Positions 49,040 through 57,115 of a stretch of DNA of 64,000 nucleotides are shown here, one piece after another; within the stretch, counting starts at the first letter, position 1, and every line of letters starts with the position of its first letter. The stretch spans positions 4,712,001 to 4,776,000 of the forward strand of contig CP108521.1 in the NCBI GenBank assembly GCA_035999765.1, given 5' to 3'. Source of the stretch: Streptomyces sp. NBC_01231 (lineage in GTDB: Bacteria; Actinomycetota; Actinomycetes; Streptomycetales; Streptomycetaceae). A model generated the notes under the pieces. That model was not told the origin of the DNA. It saw only the letters and a program-made list of their open reading frames with translations, and did not search any database. Both the position numbers and the translations under genes were made by a program.

Positions 49040-50773
<1,734 letters not shown>

Positions 50774-51139: not shown

Positions 51140-51346
51140 TCAGCCGGTCGCCAGACGAACCATGTCCGCCTGCGGCCCCTTCTGACCCTGTGAGATCTCG
51201 AAATCGACCCGCTGCCCCTCTTCCAGGGTGCGGTACCCGTCCATCTGGATGGCGCTGTAGTGGACGAAAACATCCGCACCACCGTCGACCGCGATGAAGC
51301 CGTACCCCTTCTCCGCGTTGAACCACTTGACGGTGCCCTGAGCCAT
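51140..51346 (-). CDS. Cold-shock protein (CspA/ScoF type)
   Basis: 68 residues from ATG 51346 with GGGGAG upstream. Complete single-domain Csp[30 protein letters not shown] contains RNP1 (KGYGFI) and RNP2 (VFVHY), followed by [26 protein letters not shown]. It binds single-stranded RNA/DNA and prevents secondary structure. The 350-base non-coding stretch upstream probably includes a long 5' leader of the kind that regulates csp genes. Confidence 0.95.
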
Positions 51347-51700
51347 GCCTAACTCCCCTATTACTGGCCCTTGCACAGATCCACACTTCATGGATCCGGG
51401 TCAGACCTCACCCCCCACATGATTGGGGGCGTGCGCCGGAACGCGTCGACCGCGGCCGAATGTATCTGCCCAACTGCCGTCTGCAACAGGTCAATCGGAC
51501 GAGAATTCCGGACGCGAGCGATCCGGAATGTGGTGAGAATTCACCCGAATTCAGGGCAAGCCGGGCCCCACAAAGAACACAAAAGCCACGAAAGAGGCGC
51601 ACACTTTGGCTACATCTTGTCGGGCGTAAGGAAGAAATCAAGGCTGCCGACCTGTAAAACGGCGGCGCGTTCCCCAACTGTACCGCGCTCAACCACATTG
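51347..51700 (-). promoter_or_regulatory. Long non-coding region upstream of the cold-shock gene
   Basis: 354 bases without a convincing gene and distinctly less GC-rich than its surroundings. It should contain the csp promoter and 5' leader. Visible structure includes a CCCCC(A) / (T)GGGGG hairpin at about 51411-51430. A frame on the plus strand (51371-51754) lacks a ribosome binding site and Streptomyces codon bias and is not called. Confidence 0.4.
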
Positions 51701-51737
51701 AATTGCCCCCTCCGCTTCTCTTACGGAGGGGGCAATT
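51701..51737. terminator. Terminator of the thrC-moaD operon
   Basis: AATTGCCCCCTCCG / CGGAGGGGGCAATT, 14 perfect pairs around a 9-base loop, 40 bases downstream of the MoaD-like gene on the minus strand. Confidence 0.88.
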
Positions 51738-51776
51738 CGATGAACGCTCGGTAACTGATGTTACCGAAGGTAATGA

Positions 51777-52052
51777 TCAGCCGCCGGCAACGGCCGGAAT
51801 GATGGAGACACCGGCGCCGTCCGGGGTCGCGGTCTCCAGCCCCTGCTCGAAGCGGACGTCGTCGTCGTTCACGTACACGTTGACGAACCGGCGCAGCTTG
51901 CCCTGGTCGTCGAGAACGCGCGCGGCGATGCCGGTGTGGTTCTTCTCGAGGTCGGCGATGACCTCGCCGAGGGTGCCCCCCTCGGCGGCGACCTCGGCCT
52001 TGCCGCCGGTGTAGGTGCGCAGGATGGTGGGGATGCGGACGTTGACGCTCAC
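51777..52052 (-). CDS. MoaD/ThiS-family sulfur-carrier protein
   Basis: 91 residues from GTG 52052 with GGAGG upstream. β-grasp (ubiquitin-like) fold: VNVRIPTILRTYTGGKAEV, TLGEVIADLEKNHTGI, RRFVNVYVNDDDVRFEQGL, and the C-terminus SIIPAVAGG. The terminal Gly-Gly is exposed with no extension, ready for adenylation and thiocarboxylation. It is downstream of the ThrC paralogue on the same strand, and both lie behind a SAM-I riboswitch, so sulfur donation for homocysteine or methionine synthesis is more likely than molybdopterin synthesis; no other moa genes are near. Confidence 0.9.
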   Translation of the reverse strand: MSVNVRIPTILRTYTGGKAEVAAEGGTLGEVIADLEKNHTGIAARVLDDQGKLRRFVNVYVNDDDVRFEQGLETATPDGAGVSIIPAVAGG

Positions 52053-52082
52053 GATGTGACCTCCGGTCGGGGTTACTGGCCT

Positions 52083-52151
52083 AGGGGCGCGGGGCTGTGT
52101 GGGATGTGCGGCTGCCGTCGCGCGGGCGCGACCGGCCGCACCGGCCTGCAG
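52083..52151. repeat. Streptomyces REP-like element, copy 1 (between ThrC and MoaD genes)
   Basis: AGGGGCGCGGGG..GGGATGTGCGGC..GGGCGCGACCGGCCGCACC. The same consensus appears at 59963-60028. Abundant dispersed intergenic repeats of this type are known in Streptomyces chromosomes. Confidence 0.6.
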
Positions 52152-52166
52152 TCGGACAACTACCTC

Positions 52167-53450
52167 TCAGACGAGCCCGGCCTCACGGAACGACTCCAGG
52201 TTGGGACGAATGGTCGCGGTCAGCCCCGTTCCCGCCACCGCGTCCAGCGTCTTGAGCCCGTCGCCGGTGTTGAGCACCACCGTGGTCTTGGCCGGGTCGA
52301 GAAGACCATTCTCGATCAGCTTCCTCGTCACACCCACCGTCACACCACCCGCGGTCTCCGCGAAGATGCCCTCGGTCCGCGCCAGCAGCTTGATCGCGTC
52401 GACGACCTGCTCGTCGTTCACGTCCTCCACCGCACCGCCGGTGCGACGGGCGATGTCGAGCACGTAAGGACCGTCCGCCGGGTTGCCGATCGCCAGCGAC
52501 TTGGCGATGGTGTTCGGCTTCTGCGGCCGGACCACATCGTGCCCGGCCTTGTAGGCGACGGACACCGGCGAGCAGCCCTCGGCCTGCGCACCGAAGATCT
52601 TGTACGGCTTGTCCTCGACGAGCCCGAGCTCGATGAGCTCCTTCAGACCCTTGTCGATCTTCGTGAGCTGCGAGCCTGAGGCGATCGGCACGACCAGCTG
52701 GTCCGGGAGCTGCCAGCCGAGCTGCTCGCAGATCTCGTACGCCAGCGTCTTGGAGCCCTCGGCGTAGTACGGCCGCAGGTTGACGTTGACGAAGCCCCAG
52801 CCCTCGCCGGCCGGGTCGCCGATCAGCTCGGAGCAGAAACGGTTCACGTCGTCGTAGTTGCCCTCGATGCCGACGAGCTCTCCGCCGTAGACGGCGGCCA
52901 TGACGACCTTGCCCTGCTCCAGGTCGTGCGGGATGAACACGCAGGAACGGAAGCCGGCCCGGGCGGCGGCGGCGCCCACCGCACCGGCGAGGTTGCCGGT
53001 GGAGGAGCACGACAGGGTGGTGAACCCGAAGACGCGGGCGGCCTCGATGGCCTGGGCGACGACCCGGTCCTTGAAGGAGTGCGTCGGGTTGCCCGAGTCG
53101 TCCTTGACGAAGAGCTTGCCGGCGTCGACGCCCAGCTCACGGGCCAGGTTGTCGGCCTTGACGAGCTTGGTCCAGCCGGGGTTGATGTTGGGCTTGTCGG
53201 CCACGTCCGCCGGGACGGGCAGCAGCGGCGCGTAACGCCAGATGTTCGCGGGGCCCGCCTCGATCCGCTTGCGGAGCTCCTCGGCGTCGTAGGCGGAGAA
53301 GTCGTAGGCGATCTCGAGCGGGCCGAAACACTCCTCGCACGCGAAGACCGGGCCGAGGGGCACGCGGTGGCCGCACTCGCGGCAGCTCAGCGCTGCGGCG
53401 GGGCCGAGGTCTACGGTGTTCGTGGTGCTTGCATCAGTCTGCACAGCCAT
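52167..53450 (-). CDS. thrC: Threonine synthase-family PLP enzyme (probable homocysteine synthase)
   Basis: 427 residues from ATG 53450. N-terminal zinc ribbon C23-x2-C26...C38-x2-C41 (SCRECGHRVPLGPVFACEECFG), then a fold-type II PLP domain with Lys127 in NPTHSFKDRVVAQAIEAAR, phosphate-binding CSSTGNLAGAVGAAAARAG, and VPIASGSQLTKIDKGLKEL and VLNTGDGLKTLDAV. The family uses O-phosphohomoserine. As annotated it is a threonine synthase, but the SAM-I riboswitch in front and the ThiS-like protein behind indicate control by the methionine branch. I infer that it makes homocysteine from O-phosphohomoserine with a thiocarboxylated carrier as sulfur donor; I recall recent Streptomyces work on such a system but could not check it. 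Confidence 0.9.
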   Translation of the reverse strand: MAVQTDASTTNTVDLGPAAALSCRECGHRVPLGPVFACEECFGPLEIAYDFSAYDAEELRKRIEAGPANIWRYAPLLPVPADVADKPNINPGWTKLVKADNLARELGVDAGKLFVKDDSGNPTHSFKDRVVAQAIEAARVFGFTTLSCSSTGNLAGAVGAAAARAGFRSCVFIPHDLEQGKVVMAAVYGGELVGIEGNYDDVNRFCSELIGDPAGEGWGFVNVNLRPYYAEGSKTLAYEICEQLGWQLPDQLVVPIASGSQLTKIDKGLKELIELGLVEDKPYKIFGAQAEGCSPVSVAYKAGHDVVRPQKPNTIAKSLAIGNPADGPYVLDIARRTGGAVEDVNDEQVVDAIKLLARTEGIFAETAGGVTVGVTRKLIENGLLDPAKTTVVLNTGDGLKTLDAVAGTGLTATIRPNLESFREAGLV

Positions 53451-53469
53451 GGAGGCGAGGCCCTTTCTC

Positions 53470-53608
53470 CTCATCTTCCTCACGACGCACTTCGCCGTGA
53501 GACGGATTTGGCACCTTCCCTAGTCGGGAGCCTCGCTGGTGACGAGAACCGACTGGAGGGTTGCCGGGGCTTCATCGGGCCGTATCCCTCTGCCCCTCTG
53601 GATGAGCG
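53470..53608 (-). promoter_or_regulatory. SAM-I (S-box) riboswitch
   Basis: On the minus strand the conserved core is complete: AGAGGGATACGGCCCGATGA, then AGCCCCGGCAACC, and 3' AAGGTGCCAAATCCG. P1 can pair CTCATC (53608-53603) with GATGAG (53475-53470). The 3' strand of P1 runs into GAGGAG, the Shine-Dalgarno region of the ThrC-family gene whose ATG is at 53450, suggesting control of translation initiation: SAM binding would hide the ribosome binding site. This matches the S-box family (RF00162 type) by inspection. Confidence 0.9.
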
Positions 53609-53795
53609 GTATGTGGTTGTTGATCGGTGAAACGAGGCGGCGACCCCCGACATGCGATGGTCACCCGCGTTGTTCAAGACTGTAACCGAAGGCCAGGACA
53701 GTTGAGATAGCCGTCCGAACCGCGAGATGGATCACATGGCCCACACGAGACCATGGACAGCAGCTCGCCGAGAGAACGCAGAGGAGCCGCGCACT

Positions 53796-54740
53796 GTGCT
53801 GAATGAAGTCGAGCGCTGGCTGAGCACCCGCTCCTGGTCGAAGACCGATCGCCCGCTCCACAAGATCCTGGCAGCGAAACGCGCCACGGGCCAGTCGGTC
53901 AGCGTGGTGCTGCCGGCGCTGAACGAGGAGGAGACGGTCGGTGACATCGTCGCCGTGATCCGTCACGACCTCATGCAGCAGGTCCCGCTCGTCGACGAGA
54001 TCGTCGTCGTGGACTCGGGATCGACCGACCGCACGTCCGAGGTGGCAGCCGCAGCCGGGGCGAGGGTCGTCCACCGCGACGACATACTGCCCCGCATACC
54101 GACCGTCCCCGGCAAGGGCGAGGTGCTGTGGCGCTCGCTCCTCGTCACCGGCGGCGACATCGTCTGTTTCATCGACGCCGACCTGAAGGAGTTCTCCTCG
54201 GACTTCGTCTCCGGGATCGTGGGCCCGCTGCTCACCGACCCCGGGGTCCACCTGGTCAAGGGCATGTACGACCGTCCGCTGGGCGGCGCCGCCGGCCAGG
54301 GCGGCCGGGTCACCGAACTGATGGCCCGCCCGCTGCTGAACATGCACTGGCCGCAGCTGGCCGGTTTCGTCCAGCCGCTGGGCGGTGAGTACGCGGCCCG
54401 CCGCTCCCTCCTCGAACAGCTGCCGTTCCCCGTCGGGTACGGCATCGAGCTGGGCATGCTGGTCGACTCCCTGCACCTGGTGGGCCTCGACGCCCTCGCC
54501 CAGGTCGACATCGGCGTGCGCATCCACCGTCACCAGGACGGACAGGCGCTGGGCCGCATGTCCGCCGCGATCTACCGCACGGCCCAGCTCCGGCTGGCCC
54601 GCGGCCACCTCATCCGGCCCTCCCTCACCCAGTTCGAACGCAGCGGGGACGGCTTCGAGCCACGCACCTACTCGGTCGACACGGAGGAGCGCCCGCCGAT
54701 GGCGGAGATCGCGGAGTACACGGCACGGAAGGTCGCCTGA
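53796..54740 (+). CDS. gpgS: Glucosyl-3-phosphoglycerate synthase-like GT2/GT81 glycosyltransferase
   Basis: 314 residues from GTG 53796 (GAGGAG nine bases upstream), giving MLNEVERWLSTRSWSKTDRP; ATG 53727 would add 23 residues. GT-A fold: SVVLPALNEEETVGDIVAVIR, DEIVVVDSGSTDRT, DxD as DAD (127-129, CFIDADLKEF), GMYDRPLGG, and QPLGGEYAARRSLLEQLPFPVGYGIELGML. This is the GpgS type that transfers glucose to 3-phosphoglycerate, a step to glucosylglycerate or methylglucose polysaccharide precursors. Adjacent otsA/otsB supports a role in compatible solutes or glucose storage. Confidence 0.85.
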   Translation: MLNEVERWLSTRSWSKTDRPLHKILAAKRATGQSVSVVLPALNEEETVGDIVAVIRHDLMQQVPLVDEIVVVDSGSTDRTSEVAAAAGARVVHRDDILPRIPTVPGKGEVLWRSLLVTGGDIVCFIDADLKEFSSDFVSGIVGPLLTDPGVHLVKGMYDRPLGGAAGQGGRVTELMARPLLNMHWPQLAGFVQPLGGEYAARRSLLEQLPFPVGYGIELGMLVDSLHLVGLDALAQVDIGVRIHRHQDGQALGRMSAAIYRTAQLRLARGHLIRPSLTQFERSGDGFEPRTYSVDTEERPPMAEIAEYTARKVA

Positions 54741-54860
54741 CGCGGGTGTGCCGTCGTATGCCATCGCCGTGTGACGCGGACCGTAGTACGTGCTTCTACG
54801 GTCCGTGGCGAACGTCATCCGTACGTTTGAGCGTTTCCGGGCCGGGCTAGGTTGTGGCGT

Positions 54861-56258
54861 ATGGCCTCCACCAGCGGTGCTGCTCAGGTACTCGTCGCGT
54901 CCAACCGCGGCCCGGTTTCGTACGAGGTGCGCGAGGACGGCTCGCTGCACGCCAAACGGGGCGGCGGCGGGCTGGTCTCGGGGCTGTCCGCGATCGGCTC
55001 GGACGCGGGTTCCCTGTGGGTGTGCTCGGCGCTGGGTGACGGCGACCGGGAGGCGGTGCGGCGCGGGGTCGGCGAGGACGGCGTGCGGATGCTGGACATC
55101 CCGGCCGACGTGCACGCCGACGCGTACAACGGCATCGCCAACTCGGTGCTGTGGTTCGTGCACCACATGCTGTACCAGACCCCGCTGGAGCCGGTCTTCG
55201 ACGCGGAGTTCCGGCGGCAGTGGGCGTCGTACGAGACGTACAACCGGGCCTTCGCCGAGGCGCTGGCCGAGGAGGCGGCGCAGGGCGCGTCGGTCGTGGT
55301 CCAGGACTACCACCTGACGCTGGTCCCGGGCCTGCTCCGGGAACTGCGCCCGGATCTCAGGATCGGCCACTTCTCGCACACGCCGTGGGCGCCGCCGGAG
55401 TACTTCCGGATGCTGCCGGACGACATCGGGCAACAGGTCCTGCGGGGCATGCTGGGCGCCGACCGGCTGGGCTTCTTGACCCACCGTTGGGCGGACGCGT
55501 TCACCGCGTGCGCCGAGGAGTTCGCCGGGGGGCTCGGGGGCACCCGGATCGGCGTGCACGGTCTCGGCGCGGACGCGGACTTCCTGCGGAAGCGGGCGCA
55601 CGAGGCGGACGTCGACGAACGGATGACGGCGCTGCGGGCCGAGATCGGCGAGGGCCGGAAGGCGATCGTCCGGGTCGACCGCACCGAGCTGTCGAAGAAC
55701 ATCGTGCGAGGGCTGCTGGCGTACCGGCAGCTGCTGGACGACCATCCGGAGTGGCGCGAACGGGTGGCGCACGTGGCGTTCGCGTACCCCTCGCGGCAGG
55801 ACCTCGCGGTGTACCGGGACTACACGGCCGACGTGCAGCGTCTGGCCGAGGAGATCAACTCCCAGTACGGGACGCCGGGCTGGACCCCTGTCGTGCTGCA
55901 CGTCAAGGACGACTTCGCCCGCTCGCTGGCGGCCTACCGGCTGGCCGACGTGGCCCTGGTGAACCCGATCCGGGACGGCATGAACCTCGTCGCCAAGGAG
56001 ATTCCGGTCCTCTCCGAAGAGGGCTGCGTGCTGGTGCTGTCGCGGGAGGCGGGGGCGTTCGAGGAGCTGGGGGACGACGCGATCGCGGTGAACCCGTACG
56101 ACGTGGTGGCGACGGCCCGGGCCCTGCACGAAGCGCTCACCCTGCCGCCCGGCGAACGGGCCGAGCGCACCAAGCGGCTCGCCGCGGCGGCCACCGCGCT
56201 GCCCCCGGCCCAGTGGTTCCTGGACCAGTTGCACGCGCTCGACGCTCAGTCCAGCTGA
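54861..56258 (+). CDS. otsA: Trehalose-6-phosphate synthase (GT20)
   Basis: 465 residues from ATG 54861. VLVASNRGPVSYEV, GGGGLVSGLSAIG, FVHHMLYQ, VVQDYHLTLVPGLLRELRPDLRIGHFSHTPWAPPEYFRMLP, RVDRTELSKNIVRGLLAYRQLL and NPIRDGMNLVAKEIPVLSEEG define the family and its active site. Compared with E. coli OtsA, HDYHL is QDYHL and the VDRxDYxKG motif is VDRTELSKN, variations shared with actinomycete enzymes; I recall that the S. venezuelae enzyme prefers GDP-glucose. It makes trehalose 6-phosphate for OtsB, whose gene overlaps convergently. Confidence 0.92.
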   Translation: MASTSGAAQVLVASNRGPVSYEVREDGSLHAKRGGGGLVSGLSAIGSDAGSLWVCSALGDGDREAVRRGVGEDGVRMLDIPADVHADAYNGIANSVLWFVHHMLYQTPLEPVFDAEFRRQWASYETYNRAFAEALAEEAAQGASVVVQDYHLTLVPGLLRELRPDLRIGHFSHTPWAPPEYFRMLPDDIGQQVLRGMLGADRLGFLTHRWADAFTACAEEFAGGLGGTRIGVHGLGADADFLRKRAHEADVDERMTALRAEIGEGRKAIVRVDRTELSKNIVRGLLAYRQLLDDHPEWRERVAHVAFAYPSRQDLAVYRDYTADVQRLAEEINSQYGTPGWTPVVLHVKDDFARSLAAYRLADVALVNPIRDGMNLVAKEIPVLSEEGCVLVLSREAGAFEELGDDAIAVNPYDVVATARALHEALTLPPGERAERTKRLAAAATALPPAQWFLDQLHALDAQSS

Positions 56259-57115
56259 GCCGCCAGCGCCTTCAGCAGCCGCACGACACCCGCCGGTCCG
56301 TCCACCACCAGGTCGGCCCGCTCCCTCAGCTCCGTCACCTCGTCGCTGCCGCTGCACACCAGCAGGCCGGGGGTGCCGTCGGAGCGGAGTTTGTCGACCG
56401 CGGCGAAGGCGGGGAGGTCGCCCAGGTCGTCGCCGCCGTAGAGGACGGACTCGGCGGAGATCTCGCGGGCGTACTCGAGGAGGGCGACGCCCTTGTCCAT
56501 GCCGGGCGGGCGCAGTTCGAGGACCATCCGGCCGGGTTCGACGATCAGCCCGTGCCGGGCGGCCAGCTCGGTGAGGGGGGCGCGCAGGGCCTCGAAGGCG
56601 GCCTGCGGGTCCGAGGCCCGGCGGGTGTGGACGGCGAGCGCGCGGCCCTTCTCCTCGATCCAGGAGCCCTGCCAGGCGTCGATCCGGTCGAGGAAGCCGG
56701 GCAGTTCGGCGCGGGCGGCGGCGACGCCGGGGTGTGCGGCGGGGGCGTTGACGGTGCCGGTGACGGCGTCCCAGCGTTCGGCGCCGTAGTGGCCGAGGAC
56801 GACGAGGTGTTCCAGACCGGGGACGCCCGCGAAGCCGCCGTGGCGCACCGCGACGCCGGCCGGGCGGCCGGTGACCACGGCGACGGCTGCGACCTTCGGT
56901 GCGAGGGCGGCGAGCGCGGCCACCGCGTCCGGGTGCGCCCGGGCCTGCTCGGGGTCCGCCACGATCGGCGCGAGTGTCCCGTCGAAGTCGAGCGCGATCA
57001 CCGCGCGGGCGGGGCGCGCGAGGATGGCGTCCAGTCCGTCGCGGCCGGCGGGAGTCGTCGGCGTCGGCAGAGGGCCAGGAGCGTGCGGGTCCGTGGAATC
57101 CAAGTGACTGCCCAT
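56246..57115 (-). CDS. otsB: Trehalose-6-phosphate phosphatase
   Basis: 289 residues. HAD phosphatase with motif I ALDFDGTLAPI (nucleophile Asp43, Asp45), motif II VAVVTGRPA, GHYGAERW, cap-domain SWIEEKGRALAVHTRRA (family marker), PPGMDKGVALLEY, and motif IV LYGGDDLGDLPAF. It removes phosphate from trehalose 6-phosphate. The 3' end overlaps otsA by 13 bases in convergent orientation, so the pair is not an operon and antisense interaction of transcripts is possible. Confidence 0.93.
   Translation of the reverse strand: MGSHLDSTDPHAPGPLPTPTTPAGRDGLDAILARPARAVIALDFDGTLAPIVADPEQARAHPDAVAALAALAPKVAAVAVVTGRPAGVAVRHGGFAGVPGLEHLVVLGHYGAERWDAVTGTVNAPAAHPGVAAARAELPGFLDRIDAWQGSWIEEKGRALAVHTRRASDPQAAFEALRAPLTELAARHGLIVEPGRMVLELRPPGMDKGVALLEYAREISAESVLYGGDDLGDLPAFAAVDKLRSDGTPGLLVCSGSDEVTELRERADLVVDGPAGVVRLLKALAAQLD

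Follow-up and report, generated by a model that had tools for sequence, protein, structure and literature searches.

What does a gene of the threonine synthase family make when it stands behind a SAM riboswitch and ahead of a sulfur carrier gene, in a genome that holds a separate thrC? The question is raised by a locus in a 64 kb stretch of DNA (the window), which covers positions 4712001-4776000 of an 11.34 Mb single-contig genome. The initial annotation had proposed that the pair makes homocysteine from O-phosphohomoserine and that the name threonine synthase is misleading.

The arrangement and its meaning are already in print. According to the accessible part of PMC12172450, Hasebe, Adachi, Maruyama and Hamano (2024, AEM 90:e01247-24) described a methionine route through O-phospho-L-homoserine and gave the names MetM to the homocysteine synthase and MetO to the carrier of the S. 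albulus pair. The same source states that MetM prevents methionine auxotrophy in S. albulus and that a SAM riboswitch lies upstream of S. albulus metM, unlike the cyanobacterial homologue. In the available text of PMC8079986, the S. lividans arrangement (SAM)-SLIV_16930-SLIV_16925 is tabled as a cis-regulatory element under threonine biosynthesis, and 21 of the 22 tabled S. lividans elements are highly transcribed. PMC1779556 lists CysO-type operons, and the term threonine synthase is absent from its main text as available. New in the present analysis are the breadth of the distribution, the tendency to avoid MetX, the blocked carrier termini and an apparent change of expression platform.

Results

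Layout of the locus

The features of the locus, in window coordinates, are:

53468..53608, minus strand: SAM-I (S-box) riboswitch aptamer (RF00162, 79.5 bits, model positions 1-108 of 108)
53601..53606, minus strand: P1 helix 5' strand CTCATC (matches the pattern in 79 of 80 pattern-matched leaders)
53470..53475, minus strand: P1 helix 3' strand GATGAG (80 of 81 leaders by pattern, L083 by eye)
53457..53472, minus strand: predicted alternative hairpin GAGG-AGAAAGGG-CCTC (ViennaRNA; Shine-Dalgarno in the loop)
53462..53468, minus strand: Shine-Dalgarno AGAAAGG, 11 nt before ATG 53450
52167..53450, minus strand: metM, ThrC-family PLP enzyme of 427 aa (TIGR00260, PALP; own tree group; published orthologue)
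51777..52052, minus strand: metO, ThiS/MoaD/CysO-type sulfur carrier of 91 aa with GTG start and C-terminal Gly-Gly (Pfam ThiS)
51700..51738, minus strand: terminator-like hairpin after metO, 15-bp perfect stem without T-run (inverted repeat)

Judging from its relatives, the source genome is evidently a Streptomyces. Among the best 80 of 588 related loci in our named collection, 79 are from Streptomyces and the remaining one is named 'Actinobacteria bacterium OV320', with enzyme identities of 87-96%. The 120 listed metM relatives (of about 8000 matches) are 84-96% identical and, where named, come mainly from Streptomyces. On the same strand, downstream of the metO hairpin, lie a cold-shock domain gene (window 51140-51346) and a GroEL-like frame recognized by eye (49040-50737). 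A glycosyltransferase family 2 gene (53727-54740) is divergent from metM, and frames resembling trehalose phosphate synthase and phosphatase were seen by eye at 54852-56258 and 56246-57115.

The hairpin 3' of metO is a perfect 15-bp inverted repeat with a 9-nt loop at 51738-51700. Perfect repeats of 10 bp or more occur within 170 nt after the carrier stop in 58 of 80 related loci, compared with 2 of 1600 mononucleotide shuffles. A strong terminator had been claimed here; the recurrent hairpin stands, but there is no T-run, so that the label is owed to the hairpin by itself.

A SAM-I riboswitch adjoins the ribosome binding site of metM

The aptamer is the sole Rfam match above gathering score in the window (cut-off 44.4 bits), and the whole 11.34 Mb genome holds only this one RF00162 match. 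The covariance-model search thus substantiates the S-box core that had been read on the minus strand, at full length. P1 pairs CTCATC (53606-53601) with GATGAG (53475-53470), and as its 3' strand ends one base before AGAAAGG it abuts the ribosome binding site, in line with the earlier description. We take AGAAAGG (53468-53462) to pair with the 3' end of the 16S rRNA.

When P1 is absent, ViennaRNA predicts the alternative hairpin, which shares GAG with P1 and leaves the Shine-Dalgarno exposed in the loop. If P1 is forced to form, the final Shine-Dalgarno bases are predicted to pair downstream. The calculated mean unpaired fraction of the Shine-Dalgarno is 0.91 for the free leader, 0.70 with P1 forced and 0.95 with the P1 5' strand blocked, which corresponds to a modest predicted change. 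Comparison of 81 leaders (the window and 80 related loci) revealed GAGG in 80 of 80 matched leaders and CCTC in 79 of them, with CTTC in L084. No compensatory changes in this hairpin occur among the 80 matched leaders; because the sequence hardly varies here (80 of 81 leaders fit the pattern), the alternative hairpin is without covariation support. The distance from aptamer to ATG differs by single bases across the 81 leaders, and upstream in-frame starts are therefore not conserved. On this comparison ATG 53450 is the more likely metM start, and GTG 53483, given in the list of open reading frames, was rejected.

A stem followed by a T-run between aptamer and gene is typical of terminator-type control. 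All 23 riboswitch-bearing loci among L104-L132 were scanned strictly for a perfect stem, 5 bp or longer, with TTTT after it. The scan detected this element in three of them (L122, L128 and L131), all distant, while 20 have no strict terminator-like hairpin. Inspection by eye of 16 of these 23 leaders additionally showed hairpins with shorter T-runs in L119 and a few other loci. As for the translational SAM control that had been suggested, the expression platform looks translational in Streptomyces, with the modest folding effect described above, and the aptamer-metM pair appears to be under terminator-type control in some distant Actinomycetota, as judged from the three terminator-like leaders.

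MetM forms a group separate from ThrC

The assignment of the gene behind the S-box to the ThrC family is confirmed by matches to TIGR00260 thrC (271.9 bits, cut-off 167.1) and Pfam PALP. The best matches of MetM are threonine synthases, and the enzyme lies outside the cysteine synthase branch that marks CysM-CysO-Mec systems. MetM shares with ThrC the lysine motif SFKDR and other invariant residues, and the TIGR00260 model does not separate the two. A quick tree of 59 rows (35 MetM, 23 ThrC), in contrast, resolves them as separate groups with SH-aLRT values of 99 and 84. In this tree, which follows a check suggested earlier, MetM does not group with the ThrC encoded by hom-thrC-thrB.

Further differences are found in the alignment. 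Four N-terminal cysteines (positions 23, 26, 38 and 41 of the window protein) are kept in 35 of 35 MetM rows, while the ThrC of the same genome starts after this segment. A NinF domain (Pfam PF05810) falling on the four-cysteine segment was rejected at 22.6 bits, under the cut-off of 27.5. Altogether 34 alignment columns separate MetM from ThrC, among them ThrC T89, S156, R161 and N189 versus MetM L154, N224, Y229 and S258. We presume that S156, R161 and N189 are phosphate contacts in threonine synthase; a literature search for the phosphate-contact residues of ThrC returned nothing useful. Together with the carrier partner and the SAM riboswitch, the separate tree group, the cysteine segment and the changed residues set MetM apart from ThrC.

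Methionine and threonine genes elsewhere in the genome

The proposal had been made to depend on a second thrC in the genome, and this gene is present at genome positions 6872102-6873088, encoding a protein 37% identical to MetM. It lies downstream of a homoserine dehydrogenase gene and upstream of a gene whose product carries what we take to be a homoserine kinase motif, in the order hom-thrC-thrB. A canonical ThrC scoring 408 bits or more was likewise found in 22 of the 23 genomes tested among 108 with MetM, the exception being G274 (see below).

No match to MetA was found in the genome, nor to MetX in the NF001209 search (E 1e-60), which gave matches in 6 of 14 control genomes. The best MetX-like protein (L018) reaches 134.9 bits against the TIGR01392 cut-off of 500 and was rejected as the MetX of this genome, being of the PRK07581 type. 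The TIGR01392 cut-off was reached by none of the 14 control genomes, so that missing it proves little, and we relied on the NF001209 search. Two of the 12 PF01053 matches in the genome are strong: one protein is a cystathionine gamma-synthase (681.8 bits against a cut-off of 513), the other a cystathionine gamma-lyase (568.4 bits against 440); the other 10 are partial and do not exceed 31 bits. Among 25 of the 43 rows for each of the two strong proteins, no O-acylhomoserine sulfhydrylase model scored above cut-off. As cystathionine gamma-synthase is kept, a second homocysteine route is possible in this genome.

The carrier MetO and its C-terminus

MetO matches Pfam ThiS with 60.3 bits and ends in AVAGG, which bears out the description of a small carrier with a bare Gly-Gly terminus. 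Its best NCBIfam match is SAMP1 (59.3 bits, just below the cut-off of 60). Its best match among solved structures is 3dwg_C, listed as cfp10A, which we take to be CysO of M. tuberculosis. MetO is one of four ThiS-family genes in the genome, alongside a CysO-like gene, ThiS and one more, and its product shares 58% identity with the CysO-like protein. The CysO-like gene adjoins a cysteine synthase-like frame (L013), and a Prok-JAB gene lies about 1.5 kb from it, at genome positions 4101900-4102223 (L013, L180).

We analysed carriers at 109 loci, comprising the best 80 of the 588 relatives and 29 others (L104-L132) drawn from the MetM genomes. In 108 of these a carrier gene lies downstream of metM on the same strand, at a distance of -13 to 278 nt (median 56). 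At the remaining locus, L114 (G204), no carrier was found within about 1.5 kb of metM; this metM has a SAM riboswitch.

While 93 of the 108 carriers end in Gly-Gly, the coding sequences of 15 continue beyond it, adding Cys in nine cases, Ala in three, Arg in two and Arg-Arg in one (L068, L088, L091, L097-L100, L103, L110, L112, L121-L123, L126 and L128). Thiocarboxylation is known on a free terminal glycine. Residues after Gly-Gly therefore imply trimming, and from their sequences the extended carriers apparently have to be trimmed at the C-terminus before they can be thiocarboxylated. A Prok-JAB protein above cut-off is present in 30 of 30 genomes tested among the 108 with MetM, including seven hosts of extended carriers; in one of these seven (G064, 62% complete) the match is weak (26.0 bits). 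Genomes with bare Gly-Gly carriers also have Prok-JAB, so the match shows capacity rather than cause.

MetM is widespread in Actinomycetota and tends to avoid MetX

With the window protein as query, MetM was found in 108 of 296 Actinomycetota genomes, scoring at most five candidates per genome. All of these reach 254 bits and 48% identity or more, after which the matches fall to 228 bits and 35%. MetX (NF001209, E <=1e-60) is present in 103 of the same genomes. Of the 296, 22 genomes have both enzymes, 86 only MetM, 81 only MetX and 107 neither, which yields a Fisher odds ratio of 0.34 (p = 8e-5) in a statistic that ignores relatedness. By this measure the two enzymes tend not to share a genome.

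A survey with stricter filters found RF00162 in 145 of the 296 genomes. For at least 58 of the 108 genomes with MetM, a same-strand SAM riboswitch precedes metM by 1-264 nt, a lower bound since the count is drawn from 150 listed RF00162 matches; the linkage thus extends through the phylum. A similar linkage to MetX was seen in 26 of 102 MetX genomes, in a subset of 28 matches on MetX contigs chosen by eye among the 150 listed (G285, with a fragmented MetX, was left out).

MetM is also carried by Acidimicrobiales. Many profile-search matches, among the 120 listed of about 8000, are named 'threonine synthase [Acidimicrobiales bacterium]', and one of these proteins (P0126) is 100% identical to that of L113 in genome G274. 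In G274 (Acidimicrobiales, 99% complete; L113, L155, L165) MetM is the only ThrC-family protein above cut-off. Acidimicrobium ferrooxidans was named in 2018 as being without known homocysteine routes (PMC5764234, in the text available).

Discussion

The window pair is almost certainly a metM-metO route to homocysteine and methionine. We further hold it to be very probable that the whole is a metM-metO operon for SAM-controlled homocysteine synthesis from O-phosphohomoserine and the sulfur of MetO. The parts, their linkage through the phylum, the missing MetA and MetX matches and the separate ThrC are results of this analysis; the enzyme activity is taken over from the orthologue in S. albulus, and the adduct chemistry, the activation of the carrier and the translational mode are inferred. 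In its published description, as far as accessible, the S. albulus system comes from the same genus and has a ThrC-like homocysteine synthase, metO and an upstream SAM riboswitch, and in this comparison by description we saw no difference from the window locus. This precedent (PMC12172450, accessible part) and the separate ThrC support the earlier proposal of homocysteine formation from O-phosphohomoserine. Against our explanation stand the 22 of 108 MetM genomes that also have MetX, the 107 of 296 genomes that have neither, the cystathionine gamma-synthase kept by the genome, the carrier-less locus L114, genome G274 with MetM as its sole ThrC-family protein above cut-off, the changes at the presumed phosphate contacts, the modest folding change at the Shine-Dalgarno and the activity of a Microcystis relative (see below).

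In the proposed mechanism MetO would acquire a thiocarboxylate at the C-terminal glycine, probably through a MoeZ-type enzyme. MetM would take the phosphate off O-phosphohomoserine and attach the sulfur from MetO at the gamma carbon to give homocysteine, probably as a MetO-homocysteine adduct at first, which a JAMM protease would cut as in CysM-CysO-Mec. Homocysteine would then be converted to methionine by methionine synthase. When SAM is plentiful, the riboswitch would close P1 beside the Shine-Dalgarno and lower translation; when SAM is scarce, the small alternative hairpin would present the Shine-Dalgarno in its loop.

In the S. albulus work of Hasebe and co-workers, thiocarboxylated MetO is said to be the sulfur donor. 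The HcyS/HcyD/MetY system of Wolinella succinogenes reportedly uses an O-acetylhomoserine sulfhydrylase and not a ThrC relative. It likewise represents protein thiocarboxylate-dependent methionine synthesis (Krishnamoorthy and Begley 2011, as far as accessible). The CysM reaction may serve as the natural model for that of MetM: CysM combines O-phosphoserine and the CysO thiocarboxylate into a CysO-Cys adduct, which is cut by Mec (PMC3227635, accessible part). In both systems a PLP enzyme works with a thiocarboxylated carrier, and the acceptor is a phosphorylated amino acid. MetO resembles 3dwg_C, presumably CysO of M. tuberculosis, and the CysO-like protein of its own genome. Unlike CysM, MetM stems from the ThrC branch, its acceptor would be O-phosphohomoserine, and a SAM riboswitch lies ahead.

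The TIGR00260 score of MetM, above cut-off, would also suit a second, SAM-regulated threonine synthase with the carrier as a bystander. Against such an enzyme stand the canonical ThrC of hom-thrC-thrB, which has counterparts in 22 of 23 MetM genomes tested, and the recurrent linkage of riboswitch and carrier throughout the phylum. While the S. albulus protein is published as a homocysteine synthase, a Microcystis relative (51.6% identical to S. albulus MetM) acts as a threonine synthase in vitro, and the cyanobacterial thrC is adjoined by a metO-like gene of the sulfur carrier family (47.25% to S. albulus metO); this relative was highly expressed, with methionine not raised, in threonine-treated cells (PMC12172450, accessible part). 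G274, with no other ThrC-family protein above cut-off, also speaks for threonine formation. We regard this reading as extremely unlikely, and a plain duplicate threonine synthase was rejected. Regarding the name, the published MetM function agrees with the view that 'threonine synthase' misleads, but the Microcystis activity and G274 suggest that it may not mislead for every relative.

The same two observations, together with the common ancestry with ThrC, would fit a bifunctional MetM that makes homocysteine with thiocarboxylated MetO and threonine without it. We judge this unlikely for the window protein, as the 34 separating columns, including the changes at ThrC T89, S156, R161 and N189, suggest specialisation and its genome has no need of a second ThrC. 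It is also conceivable that MetM uses free sulfide, with MetO serving mainly molybdopterin, thiosugars or protein tagging. Carriers can share sulfuration partners, as mycobacterial MoeZR serves both MoaD and CysO according to the partly accessible literature, and the best NCBIfam match of MetO is SAMP1. However, the carrier gene follows metM directly at 108 of the 109 loci, and the genome has three other ThiS-family genes, the CysO-like gene and ThiS included; we consider this reading very unlikely. The metM-metO route to homocysteine is the reading we prefer.

Taken further, MetM-MetO may be a main and widely mislabelled homocysteine route not only in Streptomyces but also elsewhere in Actinomycetota, many Acidimicrobiales among them. 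In some lineages its carrier would be a blocked proform (Cys, Ala or Arg after Gly-Gly) trimmed by a JAMM protease, and aptamer and operon would have shifted between control by transcription termination and by translation. We consider the chances of this joint reading to be evenly balanced. If it is true, JAMM trimming of the blocked carrier adds a control point, and the terminal Cys of the carrier would mimic the CysO-Cys adduct.

All source names shown for 240 listed relatives (two listings of 120 each, of about 8000) are threonine synthase. As these names coincide with a TIGR00260 model that accepts MetM, pathway predictors may overlook this route to methionine and predict one threonine route too many. 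Labels in 108 of the 296 sampled Actinomycetota genomes would be corrected by a model specific to MetM, which would also help to test the homocysteine gap that the available text of PMC5764234 notes for Acidimicrobium.
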